A stretch of DNA of 28,966 nt from IMG/VR virus record IMGVR_UViG_3300028173_000488, positions 1 through 28,966 of that record; one strand, 5' to 3'. A program made the position numbers and the translations under genes. The notes under the pieces were generated by a model. It was not told the origin of the DNA, made no database searches, and saw nothing but the letters and a program-made list of their open reading frames with translations. Source of the DNA: a virus. Of this stretch, positions 3,414 to 28,966 are shown one piece after another. Each line of letters opens with the position of its first letter. Position 1 is the stretch's first letter.

Positions 3414-3761
3414 CTATTTCTTTATTGATTCCTTTATGTCGTTTTCTGCCATAACGGTTTTTATGATCTTTCTGAGTTTCTTTGTCAGTTCGTTGTCTTT
3501 GCGTAAAATTCGGCAGAATAGTCCCATTAACTTCTGCGCCGATATATCAAGTTCAAGCCATTCCCTTCTTTTAATATGCCCACCGGAATACGCTATACGC
3601 TTTAGCTCTGAATTGACAACCATTTTTATATTGCCTAGAAATTCGTTTTCTTCTTCGAGACCAGTGCACAAGATACTTACTACTTCATTTTCTCTGATTT
3701 TTATTATCAAACCAGATTCCTCTTTCTCAGTCAACATTTTATTTGGCTTTGAATCACTCAT
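3414..3761 (-). CDS. Hypothetical protein, last gene of the cassette (115 aa)
   Basis: Not recognised. A small charged protein (starts MSDSKPNKMLTEKEESG, ends NDIKESIKK) with a predicted strand-rich first half (GLIIKIRENEVVSILCTG) and a helical, Lys/Arg-rich second half. Its ATG overlaps the stop of the upstream radical SAM gene (ATGA), so the two are translationally coupled. It lies directly before the tail tube gene. It could belong to the tail module (tail genes often carry a small protein here) or to the modification cassette. The sequence does not decide. Confidence 0.7.
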   Translation of the reverse strand: MSDSKPNKMLTEKEESGLIIKIRENEVVSILCTGLEEENEFLGNIKMVVNSELKRIAYSGGHIKRREWLELDISAQKLMGLFCRILRKDNELTKKLRKIIKTVMAENDIKESIKK

Positions 3762-5131
3762 AATTTATATAACCTTTTGAATAAATGTTCTTTGTATAAT
3801 TTTCCAACACGCTCATATAGACGATCAAACGGCAGTAGCAACAGGATACTTGCCATCCACTTCGGCACTTTTAATCCAACCAATAAAGTGAATAAACGCT
3901 GCATATTCTCAAGCTTCCTTGCTGTTTTCTTATCAAATAGCAAGACAGTCTTGCCAAAAAATGCATCTGGTATTGTCGATATATCTCCGTCAAATACCCC
4001 TGACTTGATACATCTATTGCCAAGTTCCGTTGATGGATACGGCTGACAAAGCGATGCCCAACTGAGCCCGGTTTTGGATTTTTTATTGAACTCAAAAGTG
4101 TTCCACATGTCCTCAATGGTATTACAAAACGGAATACCGATCATATTTTCCATGCGAAAAGGCATTTTTAGTTCATGGAGTATATCTATAGCTTTATCTA
4201 CTTTTTCCTGTGAAAACTTTTTGCCAAGTATTTCTTTTCTGACTTTACCGTCTGCGGATTCAAGAGCAAATGTTATTGAGTTACACCCAGCCTTTTGTAA
4301 TAGTCTTATTCTATCATAATCAATATATTCTATTCTCATTTGTACGTGAAATGGAACGCCTACGTGGAAAGGCCAAAAGTCTGCTAATATTTCAAGATTC
4401 TTTTTGCTTGCACCCATTTCATCATCCTGGAAAAAGAAAAATTTGGTTTCCGGATAATCTTCTTTTATCTTTGTCGCCTCATTTATGACTCTCCATATTT
4501 CCCGTTGCCTCAGTCTTTTGCCATCGAATATCTCATTAAATTGTGAATTAAAACAGAACGTACACGCAAATGGACACCCACGGCTTGAACTAATCGACCT
4601 AATAGGATTATTTTTATTGTGTTCATATTTATATAAAATATCTCTGTCTGGATCTGGCAATTCATCTAGCTTTTGTGGTGGTAATTTAGCATTAACCAAT
4701 CCTGCCTTATTACAGCTTACATATTCTATACCCATAGAAAAAACATCCTCATTCCTCAAGTGTTCACACAATTCAGGCAGCGCATAATCACCTTCGCCCT
4801 TAATAACATAATCAATATGCGGTTGGCTCATAACATCATCCGTGCAGAATGTGGCATGGGCACCACCAAAGATTGAAATAAAACGGTAGTTTTGCTTAAG
4901 GCATTTGTTAATATCATAAAAACACTTCTGACCGCCTGTCCAAATCTGATAACAAATTATATTCGGAGTATGAGTTTTTACATATCCAATATAATCAGTG
5001 TCTTTATCGATCTGCAACAAATCGACTTCAAAGCCTTTTTGCTTTAAACCGGCAGATAGGTACCCAATTCCAAGGGGTTCGATAACAAATCGCTTTGTTA
5101 TAAATAAAATCTTATTCAACTTTTTGCTCAT
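3758..5131 (-). CDS. B12-binding-domain radical SAM protein (457 aa)
   Basis: Class B-type radical SAM enzyme. Residues about 8-130 resemble the N-terminal cobalamin-binding domain of the BchE-like group: PLGIGYLSAGLKQKGFEVDL, then IFGGAHATF and the DYVIKGEGD element. The [4Fe-4S] cluster motif CxxxCxxC is present at C186, C190 and C193 (RGCPFACTFC). A TIM-barrel-like region follows (FFFQDDEMGA, ITFALESADGKVRKEILGK). The length is normal for the family. Known members methylate or rearrange lipids, sugars or natural products using cobalamin and SAM. The substrate cannot be read here. It sits between the GT9 gene and the small gene before the tail tube. The ATG is preceded closely by AGGG. Confidence 0.88.
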   Translation of the reverse strand: MSKKLNKILFITKRFVIEPLGIGYLSAGLKQKGFEVDLLQIDKDTDYIGYVKTHTPNIICYQIWTGGQKCFYDINKCLKQNYRFISIFGGAHATFCTDDVMSQPHIDYVIKGEGDYALPELCEHLRNEDVFSMGIEYVSCNKAGLVNAKLPPQKLDELPDPDRDILYKYEHNKNNPIRSISSSRGCPFACTFCFNSQFNEIFDGKRLRQREIWRVINEATKIKEDYPETKFFFFQDDEMGASKKNLEILADFWPFHVGVPFHVQMRIEYIDYDRIRLLQKAGCNSITFALESADGKVRKEILGKKFSQEKVDKAIDILHELKMPFRMENMIGIPFCNTIEDMWNTFEFNKKSKTGLSWASLCQPYPSTELGNRCIKSGVFDGDISTIPDAFFGKTVLLFDKKTARKLENMQRLFTLLVGLKVPKWMASILLLLPFDRLYERVGKLYKEHLFKRLYKL

Positions 5132-5152
5132 TTCCCTAATTAGTTACTATTG

Positions 5153-6082
5153 TTATTCCAAATCCGAGGCTGTTTGTAATTCTATTTCTACATTATGAGA
5201 AGTATCACCATGGAACTCAACAATCTTCATTTGCCTCTTTATCAAACGCCACACCCGGTCAACATCAAGCCTCTCAATACATGTTGGCTTTGATTTACAA
5301 TGAGCATGGCACCTAATAGGCCGACACGTTGGGCACGGCTCAGACACGATATGATAAACATTATCGCCATATCCTCCGGAAGTTTTTGGTATTGTACAAC
5401 CACATAATTGAAATACTTGTGTTCCGGTAGTTGCAGCCAAAGAAGTTAATCCAGAATCAAGTCCGATGAACATATCAGCATTATTCATCAAATGCCATAT
5501 TTCAGTAAAGCTACCTTTAAATCGATGGTCATCATCAACCATCTGCATATCTTTATCACCACCAACCTGGTAGATTGTGTATCCGGCGTCTGTCAATAAT
5601 TGATTCAACGTATACCAATCTTTGAAATCCTTATCTGAATTTCTAGTTTGACAATGAATTACCGCATATTTAAAATTGATTATCTCGGGTCCTATTTTTG
5701 GATTAGGATAAAAGACCAAAGGTGTTTTCTTTACCGGCAATCCGCATCTTAATTGATAATAATTGAGCAAATGATTATGCCTCAAATAATCAAGCTGGTG
5801 CCAGATACCATCCTCCCACTTGATCTGCTGAGGAATCATAACCTTGTCATAACCGCCTTTGATCGCATGTTGTAATATCAGATCCCATTGAGTCAACCAA
5901 TTCTCGCATACTTCTATTTTATGGAAATCAGGATTATATCCAACGAGTTCCAAGTAGCACGTGTTTGTAAATAACGTGATTTCTGTATCTTCTCCATGAT
6001 GTTCTTTAATATTACGTGCGAGTGGATTATTAAGGATTACATCGCCCATGTCTTTTACAAGCACTAGCATTATCTTTTTCAT
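5153..6082 (-). CDS. GT9 (heptosyltransferase-family) glycosyltransferase (309 aa)
   Basis: GT-B glycosyltransferase of the ADP-heptose:LPS heptosyltransferase family. The N-terminus MKKIMLVLVKDMGDVILNNP carries the family GDxILxxP motif. The nucleotide-sugar region has VGGDKD near 173 and FIGLDSGLTSLAA near 205-217, where the family usually has DSGPxHLAA; here the His is replaced by Ser. A Cys cluster near the C-terminus (C250, C253, C258, C262, C268) is seen in part of the family. I chose ATG 6082 because it has a strong AAGGAG site 6 bases upstream; a longer frame to 6121 would overlap the preceding virion gene. In cells this family adds heptose or related sugars to lipopolysaccharide core. 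In this late operon a virion or surface glycan target is inferred. Confidence 0.85.
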   Translation of the reverse strand: MKKIMLVLVKDMGDVILNNPLARNIKEHHGEDTEITLFTNTCYLELVGYNPDFHKIEVCENWLTQWDLILQHAIKGGYDKVMIPQQIKWEDGIWHQLDYLRHNHLLNYYQLRCGLPVKKTPLVFYPNPKIGPEIINFKYAVIHCQTRNSDKDFKDWYTLNQLLTDAGYTIYQVGGDKDMQMVDDDHRFKGSFTEIWHLMNNADMFIGLDSGLTSLAATTGTQVFQLCGCTIPKTSGGYGDNVYHIVSEPCPTCRPIRCHAHCKSKPTCIERLDVDRVWRLIKRQMKIVEFHGDTSHNVEIELQTASDLE

Positions 6083-6093
6083 TGTTCTCCTTT

Positions 6094-7155
6094 TCAATTG
6101 TCTACATACAACATTGCCCATCCTGCAGCAATTCCAGTGCTGTTCGTATCTGAATCAGCCTCTATTGTTATATCATTCATTTCTTTGAAACCTCCCTTTG
6201 GAATTGGATACACTCTTGGCAAGGCGCTATTACCTGAAGACATAACGGATGCCTCCTCCTGTACCTGAAAAACATCCCCAACTGGCCTGACTTTTAATCT
6301 TAAGCTGCAATTTGCGTTTACCTTGCCAGACAGAGAACCGAACCATGTAATAAAATGCCCTGTTTTTCCTGCAGGAATTGTATCTGCGCAAATCATTGTG
6401 GAGTTATAACCGATAGGCAATGCCATCATGATATTTGCCGTGGTTGTTTTCTGCCGACATGTAATCTCTCCAACATTGTCCCCACCATGACATCTCGCTC
6501 TAGACATTCTCAAATAAGCACCAACAGTATCAACCCCTGTTACCCCATTAGTTATTATGTATTCACCCCCTACATCTACATAGGAAGAATTAAGAAGATG
6601 CCTCAATTTGATAACTGGCGTTCCCGTAGAGGCTTTAGTGGCGACCCTATAAGCATCATTTACTGCAATAGCAGTGCTTCCTTCAAATCTCCACACCGTG
6701 ATTATTGTTTCAGTGACAGATACTATTATCCCATGATCGGACTGAGTGTCATTTATTAAAACATCGCCAGCCGCCACTCCATCACTTGAAAAAGTGGCTC
6801 CTGTATCTTCCATGGTTGTAGTGCTTCCACCCGTTGCCGTGCCGCTTGATACTAATGTCCCGATATCATTCCCACTGCTACTAAAGACTTCTAATATTTC
6901 TGCCGCTACCGCATTATGCCCTGTATAAACCCCACCACCATTCCATATGGTTTCAAATGTACCAACTGCATTCGGTATATTAGGGTTACGTCCAAACTTA
7001 TGCACCACAGAATGTCCCGGTATATTCCCCTTCGCAACTTCTAATAAAAAATCTCGTGTCCAAAGAGGATTTCCAGGAATACCCATTTGTTTCTGCGATT
7101 GATCTCCTAAATATGCAGCAATCTTTGATATCTCTTTATTTAAATTAACAGCCAT
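6094..7155 (-). CDS. Putative virion surface/fibre or decoration protein embedded in the cassette (353 aa)
   Basis: The N-terminal third contains EVAKGNIPGHSVVHKFGRN followed by an ETIWNGGGVYTG segment, a phrase I associate with phage structural proteins of unknown exact place (head or tail appendages). The rest is beta-rich: a Gly/Ser/Thr-rich segment (about 100-170, GTATGGSTTTMEDTGA), then a C-terminal region with KTTTANIMMALPIGY and TGIAAGWAMLYVDN, a plausible surface-exposed sandwich. There is no signal peptide or membrane segment. Its ATG overlaps the end of the reductase-like gene, and the GT9 gene follows, so it is the only likely particle component inside an enzyme cassette. I infer that it may be the protein that carries the modification. 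The virion call is moderate; the acceptor role is a guess. Confidence 0.62.
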   Translation of the reverse strand: MAVNLNKEISKIAAYLGDQSQKQMGIPGNPLWTRDFLLEVAKGNIPGHSVVHKFGRNPNIPNAVGTFETIWNGGGVYTGHNAVAAEILEVFSSSGNDIGTLVSSGTATGGSTTTMEDTGATFSSDGVAAGDVLINDTQSDHGIIVSVTETIITVWRFEGSTAIAVNDAYRVATKASTGTPVIKLRHLLNSSYVDVGGEYIITNGVTGVDTVGAYLRMSRARCHGGDNVGEITCRQKTTTANIMMALPIGYNSTMICADTIPAGKTGHFITWFGSLSGKVNANCSLRLKVRPVGDVFQVQEEASVMSSGNSALPRVYPIPKGGFKEMNDITIEADSDTNSTGIAAGWAMLYVDN

Positions 7156-7882
7156 TGTTTCCCATCCGTCCTGTTATATCGTTAAACAACTTAATAGTTT
7201 CCTCGCAGTGAGCAATGTTCTTTGTGCCAAAACATATTACATCCGGATTTATTTCATTGATAATCATGTGGAAGGTGTTGGTAATTACACTTGCAACATG
7301 ACAAGGCTTCGCCATAAAAGAAAGACCATCATTAAATGGCTTTATTGCAAATACATATTTATCCTGCCTCTTTAATTCTAATGCAAAATCTTTCATTTCA
7401 GGGCTTGATTTTGGATGATACGGTATCATGAAAAACTTACATTCCGGGTGTTGTTTTAAAAACATAAACCCCATTCCTGCTGACTCAGTTGTAATGCCAA
7501 GCCGTGGGAACATTTTAGTTTCTAAAAGTTCATGATATAATTTATCACCGGTATTGTATAATTGTTTATCGTCCAGGTCGGATATCCACATTATATCTGG
7601 TATGCGCTGTAATGTTTGCAAGCTGTTTTTGACCAACATTAAATTTTCATTATATTTATAAGCTGAAACCTTAGTCATTATCTTAACGGTCGGATTCTCA
7701 CAATAATTTCCGAGTATTGCTTCACTGATTCCATATCGATGATGGCTATCGAATAGATTTATTCCAAGAGCCAATGCCCTCTCAATTAATGGGTATGCTA
7801 GTGCTGTCGGTAGGTGCTCAAATTTCCCACCGCCGAGGCATAACCGGGAAATATCTAAACCGTCAATATTTGTTGTTTTCAT
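7145..7882 (-). CDS. Aldo/keto reductase-like protein with altered catalytic tetrad (245 aa)
   Basis: AKR TIM-barrel protein, shorter than the usual 270-330 residues. The family motifs are clear: GINLFDSHHRYGISEAILG (D45, Y50), the catalytic-Lys strand IMTKVS (K71), a late strand with PYHPKS and IKPFNDG, and the cofactor-end motif FGTKNIAHCEETI. The position of the catalytic His (normally five residues after the Asp of a DxxxxH strand) reads DIMWISD, so S101 replaces His. Activity may be altered or lost. ATG 7882 overlaps the stop of the 57-aa gene (ATGA) and its own end overlaps the virion-type gene. Possible roles are sugar keto reduction or a non-catalytic scaffold. The family call is firm; the function is open. 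Confidence 0.8.
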   Translation of the reverse strand: MKTTNIDGLDISRLCLGGGKFEHLPTALAYPLIERALALGINLFDSHHRYGISEAILGNYCENPTVKIMTKVSAYKYNENLMLVKNSLQTLQRIPDIMWISDLDDKQLYNTGDKLYHELLETKMFPRLGITTESAGMGFMFLKQHPECKFFMIPYHPKSSPEMKDFALELKRQDKYVFAIKPFNDGLSFMAKPCHVASVITNTFHMIINEINPDVICFGTKNIAHCEETIKLFNDITGRMGNNGC

Positions 7883-8052
7883 ACTATTTTTTTATTATAT
7901 TGTATGCAGTAAGCTATATTATGTAATACTTGGTGATTAGACGAGCACGAATCTTTTGATTTATCTATTTTGGCATTGATCCTGTTTACCCACACTGACC
8001 TCTCATGGTTCCTTGCCGATTTTTGTATTGATTTAATTTCTTGATTTTTCAT
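7879..8052 (-). CDS. Small unknown protein coupled to radical SAM and reductase genes (57 aa)
   Basis: Short frame that exactly fills the gap between two enzyme genes. Its ATG at 8052 directly follows the TAG of the SPASM radical SAM gene, and its TGA overlaps the reductase ATG. The protein is basic (MKNQEIKSIQKSARNHER...) and carries two Cys in the C-terminal half (SCSSNHQ and AYCIQYNKK). No family is recognised. The exact fit argues that it is a real, translationally coupled gene. A peptide substrate of the neighbouring radical SAM enzyme is one possibility. A small partner protein is as likely. Confidence 0.6.
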   Translation of the reverse strand: MKNQEIKSIQKSARNHERSVWVNRINAKIDKSKDSCSSNHQVLHNIAYCIQYNKKIV

Positions 8053-9033
8053 CTAATTAATCCCCAATTCCTCACATACCTCATCGTATGTATTTTTAAA
8101 TTCTTCTCCAGATTTCCACCACGCAGCATCTATCCCAGCAGACCTCATATAATCACACTCACCACAATAAGACAATTCTTTCTTTTTGCCTTCAATAAAT
8201 GCTTTCCGGATATCCATCATCGGCTTGCCATGCCATATCTCTTTAAGTGTTTGATATTTTAAATCACCTATCACAACGGTACCTCGAACATCTTGGCAGC
8301 AAACAACGGCACGCCCATCTGCCATAATACTTAAATCAAGGAATATCCGCCAGCAAGGAACATTAATATCCCCTGCCATATATTGAGATTCTTTAATAAT
8401 CTTGCTGTCAGAATCAATCAATCCACCAATGTTCTGCACCCCGGAACCACCAACATCATCAACGCCCATATCCTGAAAAAGCTTATGATATGCATCCAGT
8501 GATTTTTTGTTGGCTTGTTGTGGCACAATAGCCGTTTGAATCTTCATGTTGACACTGCCAGCATTTCGAATCTTAACAAGATTTCTTACATTCTCAACGA
8601 CTATATCAAATTTCAACCCAACACGGATTTTTTCATAATCCTCTGCATTCCCACCATCAATACTGATTACAATTATATCAAGTCCTGATTCTAATATTTT
8701 TACAATTTTTTGCTTATCCAAGAGGCTTCCATTTGTGAAGAATACCAACTTCTTATCTGGATTAATTTCCTTAGTATATTTAATTCTTGAAACCAGCTTA
8801 TCAATATCCATCAATAACGGCTCACCATTTAGATGAAAGTGGATGTATTCCATATGATAATCCTTGCATTCAACAACCGCTTTCTGGAATATATCACTCG
8901 GCATTTCTCCTTGATAGCGTGTCATGCCACCACGCGGACACATAGTGCAACGGGCATTACACCCGGAATGGCTCTCTAAATGTATCTCCGCTGGGAAAGC
9001 CATTGCCTTTGTTAAATATTCCTTTAGATTCAA
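8053..9033 (-). CDS. Radical SAM / SPASM-domain protein (326 aa)
   Basis: Radical SAM enzyme with cluster ligands C25, C29 and C32 (GCNARCTMCPRG) and the family phrases FHLNGEPLL, FFTNGSLL and IVISIDGG. The C-terminal third resembles a reduced SPASM/twitch domain binding an auxiliary Fe-S cluster: PCWRIFLDLSIMADGRAVVCCQD, then GDLKYQTLKEIWHG and CGECD. Relatives modify peptides or act in cell-surface and sugar gene clusters. The start is the TTG at 9033, 8 bases after AGAGGA; the same frame has a stop 15 bases upstream, so it cannot extend. An internal ATG (residue 11) is the alternative. Followed directly by the 57-aa gene. Confidence 0.88.
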   Translation of the reverse strand: MNLKEYLTKAMAFPAEIHLESHSGCNARCTMCPRGGMTRYQGEMPSDIFQKAVVECKDYHMEYIHFHLNGEPLLMDIDKLVSRIKYTKEINPDKKLVFFTNGSLLDKQKIVKILESGLDIIVISIDGGNAEDYEKIRVGLKFDIVVENVRNLVKIRNAGSVNMKIQTAIVPQQANKKSLDAYHKLFQDMGVDDVGGSGVQNIGGLIDSDSKIIKESQYMAGDINVPCWRIFLDLSIMADGRAVVCCQDVRGTVVIGDLKYQTLKEIWHGKPMMDIRKAFIEGKKKELSYCGECDYMRSAGIDAAWWKSGEEFKNTYDEVCEELGIN

Positions 9034-9123
9034 TGTGTACGTCCTCTATTTTTAATGAATTGTCTATAAACGATAAGTCCATTGTTAATGTTATATCTCC
9101 GCGTCTGACTATACAAGTATGCT

Positions 9124-9720
9124 TCACTCCCAAATAATATAACCAATCAAATCTCCGCGTACCTTAACTTCAAATTTCTTGAATATATCGGTCAAAAAAG
9201 CAATGAAGTCTCCAATATTCCAATGCCATAAATGCTCCGGATTGTCATTTGCCATTCCGCTTGGTAGAATGCCACATACTACCTTGGCCACTCCCTTTTG
9301 TTCTCTCAATGCTTTTCCGGGGCATGTAAAATGTTCTAATGAATGCTGGGAAAAGGCAGCATCGAAAGGGGTTTTTACATACTTGCAAATTCCTGTTAAT
9401 TCTTCAGACAATGACTGCTCAAAATAAACATTTGATATATTATTCCTCTCTTGCAAATCTCTAGCGAGTTTTATGAAAATTCTTGATCCGTCTATGGCAG
9501 AAACCCGACAATCATTATTCAATGCGTATGACAAAGCAAATAACCCATTTCCACAACCCATATCAATAATGCTTTTACTATCTTTTAACACGGAATCGTA
9601 CATCCATTTAAATATTGTTCCGGTATCTCCATTATCAGTCAACAAATAATGATCTTTAATCCTCTGCTTATCCCATTTGTCAAAGTTATTTACAATATCC
9701 TTGTAATATCCTGATTCCAT
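9124..9720 (-). CDS. Class I SAM-dependent methyltransferase (198 aa, possibly longer)
   Basis: Rossmann-fold methyltransferase of the Methyltransf_11/25 type: motif I IIDMGCGNGLFALSYA (residues 51-66), acidic ribose-binding strand VSAIDGS (74-80), and motif IV-like FDAAFSQHSLEHF. The short C-terminus ends VRGDLIGYIIWE. Substrates range from sugars to lipids and proteins; none can be picked. ATG 9720 has only a weak CAGGCA upstream. The frame stays open for 23 more codons of good coding quality (KHKYPDGCKSVDDVSRYLDI) back to an ATT at 9789, which lies after a strong GAAGGAG at the end of the glycosyltransferase gene. So the true N-terminus may be upstream. Bases 9034-9123 between this gene and the radical SAM gene hold no convincing gene. 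Confidence 0.85.
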   Translation of the reverse strand: MESGYYKDIVNNFDKWDKQRIKDHYLLTDNGDTGTIFKWMYDSVLKDSKSIIDMGCGNGLFALSYALNNDCRVSAIDGSRIFIKLARDLQERNNISNVYFEQSLSEELTGICKYVKTPFDAAFSQHSLEHFTCPGKALREQKGVAKVVCGILPSGMANDNPEHLWHWNIGDFIAFLTDIFKKFEVKVRGDLIGYIIWE

Positions 9721-9784
9721 TGCCTGTATATCGAGATAGCGAGAAACATCATCAACACTTTTACATCCATCAGGATATTTATGT

Positions 9785-10891
9785 TTAATTAAATATCTCC
9801 TTCAACAACTGAATTGCCACATCATTCCACTGCATATCAAACATGTCTGCACGGCCAGCATCTCCCAAAGTACATCCATGAACCGGTTTACTGGCCAACG
9901 CTCTCATTTTTGCTTTCAAATCTTCTTTATCCGGAATAAGCCACTTATGATTTAACGCCTGTGGACATTTCTTTATGTATTCAACGCAGTCTATAGTTTT
10001 TTCCAGGCACTTAACAGTAAGGCCATTAACTCCGTCCTGCACAAAGTCCATATACCCGCCCTGAGCCGTTACAATTACCGGTAGTCCTCTGGACATGGCT
10101 TCTGCCACTGGCAAGCCAAGTCCCTCGCCTCTGGTCGCCAGAACGAAGCAATCACACGCATTGTATAGCCTTGGCAAGTCGTCATAATACAACTTGTCTG
10201 TATTTAATAAGATCCTTGGGTGTCTACCATGCTTTTTAATCATATCCTCTATCAAATATGACAATTGATATCGATGCATTGCTGTGAACCCACCCCTATG
10301 TGTCTTGAGAATCAGTGTCACATCTTCTTCCGGGCCAAATTCCTCACAATAGGCATCAAGTAAGATGTCAAAGCCCTTACGCTCTGTGAAGTCGCCAACA
10401 CTCAAGAATGTATACCCCTTTTTGTTTAATATGTTTGCTGGTTCCTCACAATACCGGAATGAATCTTCAATGCCGAAACCAAGACTGGCAACATTATCCA
10501 AAGTCTTTGACCAATGGGCTCTGTTGAATTCACTGAACGTAAATACCTTTTTGACACGCTCGAAATAAGGAAGCCATTCTGACGGAACTTTATCAGTTTC
10601 AAACAGACTGTAAATATATGCCTTTTTTAAATCAATATCTTGCGGAATGTCGTCTTGCCACTTCTGCATAACAACAACCGGAGCATCTTTGATAAAGGGA
10701 GTATCGGCCATTCTTTTAAGCCTGCTTGTTTTGTCTGTTGGCAAATTCACAATCTCCCTGTTCCATCCCTGTATATTCCGGAATGATACCTTGACTCCAA
10801 GTTTATCCAACGCTTCTAAGAGACCACGCGTGATCAGTTCGTATCCAGATTGCCCTTGTGCGGCTCCGTACCAGTTTAAAGCATATGTCAT
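9785..10891 (-). CDS. GT4-family glycosyltransferase B (368 aa)
   Basis: GT-B fold retaining glycosyltransferase (Glycos_transf_1). The N-terminal half begins MTYALNWYGAAQGQSGYELI, an acceptor-domain start with a Gly-rich turn. The C-terminal nucleotide-sugar domain has FLSVGDFTERKGFDILLDA and the paired-Glu motif GEGLGLPVAEAMSRGLPVIV with GGYMDFVQDGVNGLTV after it. Typical members transfer hexoses from UDP- or GDP-sugars. The start ATG 10891 follows AAAGGA by six bases and sits one base after the end of the 53-aa zinc-ribbon gene. The second GT4 gene lies just upstream of that. Two GT4 enzymes plus the GT9 enzyme suggest assembly of a glycan of at least two or three residues. Confidence 0.9.
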   Translation of the reverse strand: MTYALNWYGAAQGQSGYELITRGLLEALDKLGVKVSFRNIQGWNREIVNLPTDKTSRLKRMADTPFIKDAPVVVMQKWQDDIPQDIDLKKAYIYSLFETDKVPSEWLPYFERVKKVFTFSEFNRAHWSKTLDNVASLGFGIEDSFRYCEEPANILNKKGYTFLSVGDFTERKGFDILLDAYCEEFGPEEDVTLILKTHRGGFTAMHRYQLSYLIEDMIKKHGRHPRILLNTDKLYYDDLPRLYNACDCFVLATRGEGLGLPVAEAMSRGLPVIVTAQGGYMDFVQDGVNGLTVKCLEKTIDCVEYIKKCPQALNHKWLIPDKEDLKAKMRALASKPVHGCTLGDAGRADMFDMQWNDVAIQLLKEIFN

Positions 10892-10892
10892 A

Positions 10893-11054
10893 TTAATCCT
10901 TTTTCTTTAATTTTATTGTAGGTATTTCAAATTCAATACCATAATTCGTGCAGTTAAGTGTTATGCAAAATACAGTCTTTTCATGGCAATCTTGCTCTAA
11001 TTCAACTTTACACTCAGGACAAATAACCTTGACAAAGGCATTCATAAAAGGCAT
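10893..11054 (-). CDS. Small zinc-ribbon-like protein between two glycosyltransferase genes (53 aa)
   Basis: Frame found by reading the gap between the two GT4 genes. ATG 11054 overlaps the TGA of the upstream glycosyltransferase (TGATG), and the stop is one base before the next ATG. Cysteines are arranged as CPEC (C12, C15), C23, then C30 and C35 in VFCITLNCTNYG, consistent with a small zinc ribbon. The ending EFEIPTIKLKKKD is strand-like then basic. Tiny zinc ribbons of this build are common in phage genomes without known role. A second possible start is the Met at 11045. It may help the neighbouring enzymes or be unrelated. Confidence 0.65.
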   Translation of the reverse strand: MPFMNAFVKVICPECKVELEQDCHEKTVFCITLNCTNYGIEFEIPTIKLKKKD

Positions 11055-12265
11055 CACACCATCTCCATTACAACGTTATATTTTAAAGGATGCTCGATTT
11101 TATCTATAACCTTTTTCCACTGCATATCAATAACCCCTTGAGACAAATTCTCTTTAGCCCAATCGTAAGCTTTATCAACCATTGCGTTCCGCTTTTCTGC
11201 CTTCATAGACTTCATTTCTATAATAGCCTTGGCAATGTCCTTTGGATTCGCCAATGGCCTTTCTGTTAATTCCATTCCCGTTATATATGCCGTTGGTTTC
11301 ACCTTAATACCTCTGCCATTCCCAGCAAGCTCTCCGGTTGCTGCATTGTCAATGGTAATAACCGGCAATTTAGCCATCATAGCCTCAGCAACATTATACC
11401 CGAATCCTTCCCCGGCTACGTTTATCAGGCAATCAGCAATTCCGAACAAAAGATTGTATTCCTTTTCTGTCATCATTAATAACGGTGTACTTGCCTCGGA
11501 CATTTGTTTAAAGGTATAAACTTTATTTTGTAACCCAAACTCTGCGATTAACATATTAATATTATAACCCTGTGGATCCGCAAAGTTTGAATTTATCCAT
11601 AATCCATAGTCTTTGTCATGCCCACAATCCATTAAAATCTTGTATGCCTTCATTACATCGGCCAAGCTCTTCCTGAAATGTGTTCTTCCTGTGTAAAGGC
11701 ATAGAAATTTATCTGGTGGAATATTTAATTCCTGCCTGAGCTTCGTTCTTTCTTCTTTTGAAATTGGATGAAAAACTTTCTCGTTAATTCCGTGATATAT
11801 CCGCTCAATCCTGTTTGTCACTTCTGGAATAGTATGGATAACAGCCCGTCTTCCATACTCACAATATGTTATTATATGGTCTGCATGGCCTAAGTGAGTC
11901 GCATGGTGCTTTGGCATGCCTCCACCGTATCCAGTGCCATCAACCGCACAATATGAAACCCACTTGAACAATCCTCTTACTGGTGACTGTCCGATATAAG
12001 CAAAGTTCCATATATCACCAATTGTCAACACAATATCCGGACGATTTTCTCTGATCAGATCACCAAACATTGCAGATCCGTAATCTTCTACTGCATAAAT
12101 CACATTGAACGGCAGTTTTTTATTTCTGTTTACCTCAGAAGGACACCAAGCATTATAAAACACTCCATGCCCAGCTTTATACAACGCCATTGCCACATCA
12201 TGACCTATACGCCCTTGGCCAGTTTGCAATCTCGGGTTCTCGCCTATTACTAATATATTTGCCAT
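11054..12265 (-). CDS. GT4-family glycosyltransferase A (403 aa)
   Basis: GT-B retaining glycosyltransferase. N-terminus MANILVIGENPRLQTGQGRIG is a Rossmann start with a Gly loop. CAVDGTGYGGGMPKHH and IIYHGINEKVFHP-like text (IYHGINEKVFHP) mark the domain linker, CLYTGRTHFRKSLADVMKAY opens the sugar-nucleotide domain, and GEGFGYNVAEAMMAKLPVIT is the paired-Glu donor motif, followed by GELAGNGRGI. Length is normal. It overlaps the 72-aa gene upstream by a TAATG junction and the zinc-ribbon gene downstream by TGATG, so it is translationally coupled on both sides. Donor and acceptor cannot be told from sequence. Confidence 0.9.
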   Translation of the reverse strand: MANILVIGENPRLQTGQGRIGHDVAMALYKAGHGVFYNAWCPSEVNRNKKLPFNVIYAVEDYGSAMFGDLIRENRPDIVLTIGDIWNFAYIGQSPVRGLFKWVSYCAVDGTGYGGGMPKHHATHLGHADHIITYCEYGRRAVIHTIPEVTNRIERIYHGINEKVFHPISKEERTKLRQELNIPPDKFLCLYTGRTHFRKSLADVMKAYKILMDCGHDKDYGLWINSNFADPQGYNINMLIAEFGLQNKVYTFKQMSEASTPLLMMTEKEYNLLFGIADCLINVAGEGFGYNVAEAMMAKLPVITIDNAATGELAGNGRGIKVKPTAYITGMELTERPLANPKDIAKAIIEMKSMKAEKRNAMVDKAYDWAKENLSQGVIDMQWKKVIDKIEHPLKYNVVMEMV

Positions 12266-14741: not shown

Positions 14742-15041
14742 TTAAATATTCCCGTCAAGTTTAACTTTACCCTTTTGGGTTCTTATGATTTTGCCAATTT
14801 CACCTTTTTGGCCTTTGTCTTTCTCGCCATAGATCATACCTGAAATTGCATCCTCATTAAAACCTTTTTCGTGCAGCTCTAAAACACGCTTTTCATGAAG
14901 GTACTCCATATGCAACCCCTGGCCACACTTCCTAACCTCCTCATTCTGGACTTTAAATCCGTAGGAACTAATGCTCTTGGTGCCTACTGAGTCTCTGCGT
15001 CTATGTAGTCTCTTTGTTTTGCTCGTTATAATATTTGCCAT
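14742..15041 (-). CDS. Basic hypothetical protein after the capsid terminator (99 aa)
   Basis: Not recognised. Highly basic with a RLHRRR patch near residues 11-16, a helical middle (EYLHEKRVLELHEKGFNEDAIS) and a Lys/Gly-rich end (KGEIGKIIRTQKGKVKLDGNI). The middle part HEKGFNEDAISGMI has the look of a small helix-turn-helix, so DNA binding is possible. Its ATG at 15041 lies only 17 bases after the hairpin-plus-U-run structure at 15058-15118, with a weak ribosome binding site, so expression may be limited compared with the capsid gene. Confidence 0.65.
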   Translation of the reverse strand: MANIITSKTKRLHRRRDSVGTKSISSYGFKVQNEEVRKCGQGLHMEYLHEKRVLELHEKGFNEDAISGMIYGEKDKGQKGEIGKIIRTQKGKVKLDGNI

Positions 15042-15057
15042 AATTTTACTTTAAATG

Positions 15058-15118
15058 AAAAAAGGCAGAGGCCCCGTACAATCATGTAGTGACCGTAAGA
15101 AACACACTGCCTTTTTTT
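15058..15118 (-). terminator. Rho-independent terminator/attenuator after the major capsid gene
   Basis: An inverted repeat AAAAAAGGCAG / CTGCCTTTTTTT spans a 38-base loop. Read in the minus (operon) direction it gives GGCAG ... CTGCC followed by a run of six U. In the plus direction the same sequence ends with seven T, so it can act both ways. It lies after the capsid gene and directly before the next ATG, so partial read-through is needed for the downstream genes unless they have another promoter. Confidence 0.7.
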
Positions 15119-28525: not shown

Positions 28526-28636
28526 GTTTCTTGCAATACTTTCTTTGTTTTAATTGTCACCAGTATTTATCGGCATATATTTATCATCATGCAAAAACGC
28601 ATGGTTGCTTAACAGAAATCTTAATTATAAAAAGAT

Positions 28637-28664
28637 TTGTTCGCATAAGTTGTACGAATATATA
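28637..28664 (+). promoter_or_regulatory. Weak candidate promoter for the plus-strand regulator
   Basis: TTGTTC and TATATA are spaced by 16 bases. Transcription would begin near 28671, giving a leader of about 130 bases that contains the nested hairpin at 28731-28782. The rest of the 292-base divergent gap (28509-28800) is AT-rich, with small inverted repeats such as CATGC/GCATG (28589-28604), which could be operators. No gene was seen in the gap. Confidence 0.3.
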
Positions 28665-28730
28665 GTCTTGCAAAATTAAGAAAAACGTTAAGATTTTCGT
28701 TATGTTTTAATCGTTCAGCCAATTAACTAA

Positions 28731-28782
28731 AAGAGGGTCATAGGAGCAAACAATACCGTTTGCCTTTTGTGACCCTTTTTTT
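28731..28782 (+). terminator. Nested hairpin with U run in the leader of the plus-strand gene
   Basis: Outer stem GGGTCA (28735-28740) pairs with TGACCC (28770-28775), enclosing an inner stem GCAAAC / GTTTGC (28746-28751 with 28758-28763). Seven T follow (28776-28782). It is a strong intrinsic terminator on the plus strand, placed just before the ribosome binding site of the next gene, so it looks like an attenuator or the end of a short leader RNA. On the minus strand it ends with CTCTTTT, a weaker terminator. Confidence 0.75.
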
Positions 28783-28800
28783 ATTGGAGGAGGATTTAAT

Positions 28801-28966
28801 ATGAAGGAACCAAGCAGATTTTTTAATTTTCAGATGCCTTACAAAAGGTATGCAGAGCTGGAAGCAATAAGCAAGCAACACAATTGTTCAATAGCTGAGA
28901 TTGTGCGTCAAGCTATAACCTTGTTTTTTGATAAGCTCAATAATTCCAAGGGGAGTACCACAAAAT
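28801..28966 (+). CDS. Ribbon-helix-helix DNA-binding protein, partial (first 55 residues)
   Basis: Only the start is in the window. After a strong GGAGGAGG site the protein reads MKEPSRFFNFQMPYKRYAEL, then AISKQHNCSIAEIVRQAITL and FFDKL, matching the Arc/MetJ/CopG fold: a short strand (RFFNFQM), helix A and helix B with the SIAEIVRQAI turn. Such proteins bind operators as dimers. Divergent from the late operon, it may regulate the terminase promoter or its own. Extent beyond the window is unknown. Confidence 0.78.
   Translation, partial: MKEPSRFFNFQMPYKRYAELEAISKQHNCSIAEIVRQAITLFFDKLNNSKGSTTK

Follow-up and report, generated by a model that had tools for sequence, protein, structure and literature searches.

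A terminator-like hairpin ahead of a ribbon-helix-helix gene in a phage cassette related to satellite-like elements of anammox bacteria

Why should the gene of a small regulator carry what looks like a transcription terminator directly in front of its ribosome binding site? The question arises at the right end of the window, that is, the whole of the IMG/VR record IMGVR_UViG_3300028173_000488 (28,966 bases), where the original prediction had placed a two-level, terminator-like hairpin with seven T in the leader of a ribbon-helix-helix (RHH) gene. Sequence and RNA folding bear this out. The hairpin (28729-28782, plus strand), folded within 28725-28800, is one continuous stem of 23 pairs with a single bulged base; its 5' arm occupies 28729-28751, the loop AATACC 28752-28757, the 3' arm begins at 28758 and the T-run fills 28776-28782. 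The lower level is GGGTCA/TGACCC and the upper GCAAAC/GTTTGC, with A-U and G-U pairs linking the two. A Shine-Dalgarno sequence, GGAGGAGG, follows on the plus strand at 28786-28793, and 18 nt lie between the T-run and the RHH start codon at 28801. The fold energy of 28725-28800 is -29.0 kcal/mol against -13.3 +/- 3.1 in shuffled sequences (z -5.0), and one shuffle in 200 folded equally well. A stable stem-loop with a T-run directly after it, the sequence signature of an intrinsic terminator, is thus present here, as it is at the family loci described below. A search against Rfam gave no family at gathering score and nothing credible at E up to 10. A small frame running through the hairpin (TTG/GTG to a TGA overlapping the ATG), spotted by eye, was dropped as chance. 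The likeness drawn earlier to the layout at 15058 is fair, since a T-tailed minus-strand stem stands there about 17 nt ahead of an ATG at 15041; that hairpin (15058-15117) separates the major capsid gene from the gene after it and by its place would be an ordinary gene-end terminator.

The gene behind the hairpin (28801-28966, plus strand) encodes 55 amino acids, and on the strength of PHROG matches to Arc/CopG-type repressor families and of two predicted helices its product is classed as an RHH (Arc/CopG-like) repressor. In the structure model (pLDDT 82.5) the helices, residues 14-26 and 31-49, are well predicted and the strand is absent from the monomer. Foldseek matched the model weakly to the RHH proteins Arc, CopG and ORF56, the top match being the plasmid copy-control protein ORF56 of Sulfolobus islandicus (PDB 2k9i; E 0.08, non-significant alone); a sequence search with the protein found no solved structure. 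The window protein matched nothing in Pfam. One relative turned up when the species-genome collection was scanned: a protein of the anammox planctomycete Candidatus Scalindua rubra, 82% identical over residues 1-49, which matches Pfam RHH_3 at a borderline 21.5 bits (cut-off 21.6). Against this and a second relative, the dN/dS of the RHH coding sequence came to 0.10 and 0.07, a rough estimate from a short sequence. As far as that estimate goes, the coding sequence appears to have been under purifying selection, and most of its divergence need not date from its time in the phage.

Hairpin and gene are part of a 361-bp cassette (28604-28964, plus strand), delimited by blastn breakpoints and by direct reading of both alleles, which comprises the control region, the hairpin and the RHH gene through its last sense codon. 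Nine viral contigs were gathered via their large terminase subunit, and six of the nine are near-identical. The cassette is wholly absent from L002 and L005 and present in L004 (the same contig as L011); L003 holds its first 127 bases and ends at 28730, the foot of the stem, and L006 and L007 stop short of the insertion place. The empty allele has ATAGTACTTTG immediately after CATGCAAAAACGCATG; the filled one has the cassette between them. The RHH reading frame ends at the insertion joint, its stop codon (TAG, 28966-28968, read from L011) lying outside the cassette in the phage flank. Up to the break the window differs from L002 at 11 of 6,814 positions; the cassette was therefore gained or lost recently. 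No target duplication is visible at the joint. A palindrome there is slightly longer in the empty allele, which weakly suggests that the insertion is the newer state. We rejected a contig artefact: a second contig contains the complete cassette, and the cassette has matches in independent genomes. What had been called a divergent control region is not native to the phage: it belongs to a presence/absence cassette that matches satellite-like elements of anammox bacteria.

The cassette runs antisense to the terminase-portal gene run, and its neighbours are an 88-aa frame and the large terminase gene. By eye, the 88-aa frame (L011 5169-5460) is flanked by an inverted repeat, TTTGTTCTATTTTTTT / AAAAAAATAGAACAAA, and may itself be a small mobile piece. 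Two phage contigs end at the foot of the hairpin (L003, 28730) and at the cassette edge (window, 28966), a pattern one might see where the samples contain both alleles.

In DNA the cassette is 83.3% identical over 342 bp to S. rubra, whose control region and hairpin are likewise related to those of the window, and 83.8% identical over 340 bp to a second genome of the class (G355). What the cassette matches is the beginning of an RHH-primase operon carried by small integrated elements; it covers the part that lies between the upstream gene's end and, approximately, the primase start. A profile of the RHH family matched 31 of the 75 class genomes at E up to 0.001, many of these matches being to other RHH proteins; among 392 sampled genomes of the phylum, 13 had matches at E up to 1e-5. 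At 20 loci of the class (L083-L102) the usual order is RHH, primase/helicase, small genes, an excisionase-like HTH protein, DNA adenine methylase and integrase. The gene ahead of RHH at these loci encodes a protein of 230-400 aa; it lies on the same strand and in most elements ends about 60-200 nt before the RHH start, and neither Pfam nor PHROGs matched its representatives. G132a, the one element whose genes were scanned individually, holds an integrase, an excisionase, a primase, part of a helicase and a small terminase subunit, and no capsid protein was found among the 9 + 3 of its proteins scanned. A small-terminase-like family (fam 10) occurs at three of the 20 loci (G132a, G392a and G132d), PHROGs naming only the G132a member. 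From this gene content we read the donor loci as satellite-like integrated elements, and the phage seems to have picked up the switch of such an element. The primase of the S. rubra element was not confirmed in any viral contig, and among 50,697 records no named phage lay near the window by DNA or by RHH protein. Two short plasmid matches (E 0.6) were ignored.

The hairpin is a trait of this gene family. A T-tailed hairpin whose T-run lies 20-38 nt ahead of the start codon precedes the RHH gene in 16 of the 20 relatives as well as in the window, and two weaker relatives checked afterwards, G411 and G059, also have it, bringing the total to 18 of 22. It is missing at that place in G423, G268, G132d and the broken G425. 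Among 215 neighbouring genes of at least 100 aa at the same loci only 10 have such a hairpin, even with a hairpin before any start in the first 30 codons counted (p 9e-15 against 16/20), and none of 11 assessable, more distant RHH genes in the same genomes has one, three others being not judgeable. The 17 loci are related and perhaps form six sequence groups, so these and the following p-values overstate the case. Recurrence of the position before 18 of 22 homologous genes places the hairpin of the window beyond chance.

Stem sequences vary between subgroups, and stem length ranges from about 11 to 20 pairs across the family, with 23 in the window. The T-run follows the stem immediately in all 17 hairpins and in G411 and G059, a T-run having been required by the screen. 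In six flank-aligned comparisons, double compensatory changes numbered two between G132a and G417, two between G132a and G098 and one between G132c and G376; none was seen within the trio of the window, G010 (S. rubra) and G355, or between G392a and G116. One-sided stem changes are frequent and are the only type in the trio. Broken or gapped pairs number one in G010, four in G098 and one in G116.

How, then, could the gene be transcribed past its own terminator? A start between the T-run and the ATG, which would leave the hairpin out of the message, was rejected as unlikely: with 18 nt there is too little room, and no promoter fits. The position of -10-like sequences relative to the stem points elsewhere. 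A hexamer with five or six of six -10 matches ends 0-5 nt before the stem at 10 of the 17 loci, as against 5 of the 68 T-tailed hairpins found elsewhere in these sequences (p 1.2e-5); with a pattern that demands A2, T6 and at least four matches the figures are 9/17 and 14/68 (p 0.01). These boxes include TATAAT in G392a and G116, TATGAT in G408, TATCAT in G132c, TATTAT in G376, TATATT in G132b and TAAAAT in G132a, and at 7 of the 17 loci the abutting hexamer is the best -10 of the leader. The base frequencies of -10 boxes and the rule that transcription starts 7 nt past the box are general knowledge. By that rule the start falls inside the 5' arm at 17 of 17 loci, the hexamer having been set by hand, at a poor score, in G163, G178, G392b, G417, G098, the window, G355 and G010, and TATAAA having been chosen by hand in place of TAAAAT in G132a. 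With such a start the stem flush with the T-run falls from a mean of -19.3 to -0.3 kcal/mol.

We therefore favour, with moderate confidence, a reading in which the terminator blocks transcription from outside and the operon's own transcript escapes it. The hairpin would be an intrinsic terminator within the control region of the RHH-primase replication operon of satellite-like anammox elements, and in the phage that region and the RHH gene would form one self-contained cassette of 361 bp. A polymerase coming in from farther upstream would transcribe the complete hairpin and halt ahead of the RHH gene. The operon promoter would overlap the terminator: at about half of the loci a good -10-like box adjoins the stem, which predicts initiation within the 5' arm, and the operon's own RNA, from which the base of the stem is missing, would read through. 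G268 has its terminator at a separate place, upstream of the promoter-like TATTAT, an arrangement that fits an insulating purpose. Three features keep our confidence in this reading moderate and lend some weight to attenuation. The abutting hexamer is weak in the subgroup of the window, G010 and G355, where it reads TAAAAG or TAAAAA and ranks 20-29 of 145 positions (TAAAAG at 28728-28733 on the plus strand of the window, rank 20/145, recognised as a candidate only by its position, equivalent to that of the family's -10 boxes); good -35 partners are rare among the abutting boxes, the best being TTGCAA in G132b; and the loci are related.

Attenuation, which the original prediction had offered along with a riboregulator, is in our view possible but rather doubtful. 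Transcription would begin at an upstream promoter, for example TATAGT (28661-28666, plus strand) or TTTAAT (28706-28711), giving a leader with the whole hairpin; in the fuller form of this account, no less doubtful, most transcripts would stop at 28776-28782 and a ribosome, an RNA or a protein would let some pass. In the window subgroup the better -10 matches do lie farther upstream and would keep the hairpin intact. TATAGT, which scores best as a -10 in the cassette leader, is shared by G355 but not by G010. The stretch that starts at 28588 is more stably folded than its shuffles (z -5.9), and the layout is like that of the E. coli ampC leader. It is also like that of the pT181 and pIP501 rep mRNA leaders (PMC5703833). 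Neither a conserved alternative pairing nor an antisense promoter was identified, however, and the minimum-energy fold of the leader, a non-exhaustive view, contains no mutually exclusive antiterminator fold. Taken with the lack of an Rfam match, and with a -10 box that abuts the stem in over half of the 17 loci, this weighs somewhat against an attenuator or riboregulator.

It is improbable, though less so than the last alternative below, that the hairpin is a plain terminator of the donor's upstream gene, carried along by accident and of no role for the RHH gene, which in the phage may then be silent or expressed by leaky read-through. A same-strand gene does end shortly before RHH in most elements, so that a terminator is to be expected thereabouts, and no known same-strand gene lies upstream in the phage. 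Yet the T-run keeps its distance of 20-38 nt from the RHH start codon, and the captured piece begins where the upstream gene ends and extends to the primase start, its reading frame preserved. We consider it very improbable that the structure is a 5' hairpin serving RNA stability or RNase III cutting, with the T-run incidental: the 23-pair stem of the window and the residual hairpin that truncation would leave at the extreme 5' end would suit such a role, but a T-run directly follows every stem (in part by construction of the screen) and the stems differ in length, from about 11 to 20 pairs.

The RHH protein would probably repress its own promoter, through TTAAG-type repeats just upstream. Two clusters, neither assigned to a strand, are candidate operators. 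The left (28608-28626) is aligned in G010, G355 and G364; the right (28672-28702) is a 31-nt block, identical in the window, S. rubra and G355, in which TTAAGA repeats recur about every 12 bp. The clusters form inverted repeats, 28608-28626 with 28674-28692 (74%) and 28610-28624 with 28688-28702 (87%). Upstream of the RHH gene of G364, TTAAG repeats form a 34-nt inverted repeat (L091 4689-4816; 88%, 60 nt apart), of which the window holds weaker versions at 28608-28702; this is a candidate for a looped operator or a replication origin. The exact pattern of the TTAAGA block matched only two viral contigs, both insert-bearing.

What might the phage gain from the cassette? Since the operator-like block is identical, the phage RHH protein should recognise the control regions of the elements, and repression of the elements by the phage is plausible. 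We put forward only tentatively, as an unlikely but specific possibility, that the phage uses the satellite's repressor and operators against the satellite in its anammox host. RHH protein made by the phage would bind the identical operator block of the satellite and shut the RHH-primase operon; the built-in terminator, passed only from the cassette's own promoter, would make the cassette functional at any insertion site, in this case antisense inside the late operon; and an arms race would explain why phages otherwise 99.8% identical differ in having it. The link to a host of the anammox class is suggested by the cassette together with relatives of the phage terminase, found in 2 of 75 genomes of the class, the better at 34% identity; against named phages the terminase reached 25% at best among the best 20 of 373 matches. 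A CRISPR spacer search of 20 kb of the window against the 75 genomes gave weak, short matches in 14, and none of six examined of eight spacer-match loci showed CRISPR-like repeats, so that no spacer link to the host emerges. Elsewhere in the phage, among the structural genes at 3758-12265 on the minus strand, radical-SAM, glycosyltransferase, methyltransferase and aldo/keto-reductase-like frames were seen by eye, an unusual cargo for a phage late region.

The literature covered, in which older subscription papers are thinly represented, held no description of the terminator-RHH arrangement or of phage satellites of anammox bacteria. The window ties a phage to satellite-like elements in a group for which we found no satellite literature, and offers a specific example of a phage that may use a satellite's repressor against that satellite. 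If transcription does start inside the stem, a single gene family would be maintaining, with varied stem sequences, a compact insulated promoter that could serve as a portable expression unit.

Several known systems share parts of this arrangement. With IS10 and IS50, transcripts from outside carry a complete hairpin that hides the ribosome binding site, and those from inside lack one arm. The likeness would be an outside transcript with the whole hairpin and an inside start within it; the difference is that here the hairpin would terminate transcription and leave the ribosome binding site free. At frd-ampC one hairpin ends the upstream unit and sits between the next promoter and the ribosome binding site, and the ampC transcript holds the hairpin. 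Our locus would likewise have the terminator hairpin of an upstream unit between the promoter and the ribosome binding site of the next gene, but in many loci the start is predicted inside the 5' arm. The E. coli ampC attenuator and the overlap of the ampC promoter with frdD are on record (PMC11796351). In pT181 and pIP501, too, a terminator lies in the leader of the replication gene's message, where an antisense RNA switches the leader fold (PMC5703833); in contrast, neither an antisense RNA switch nor an alternative fold was found here. The donor elements recall the PICIs, in which DUF5906 proteins adjoin origins (PMC10111431): they have an integrase, an excisionase-like HTH protein and a DUF5906/D5-type or Prim-Pol primase, some have a small terminase subunit, and the one element scanned showed no capsid genes. 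This likeness is one of gene content, and the donor operon differs in beginning with an RHH protein. In copG-repB of pMV158 the leading gene of a replication operon encodes a small RHH protein that acts as repressor of its own promoter; the available part of the source (PMC5703833) describes no terminator between promoter and copG. In the donor elements, too, a small RHH gene heads a replication operon, but a terminator-like hairpin precedes it, and the control unit also occurs without the replication gene, inside a phage.
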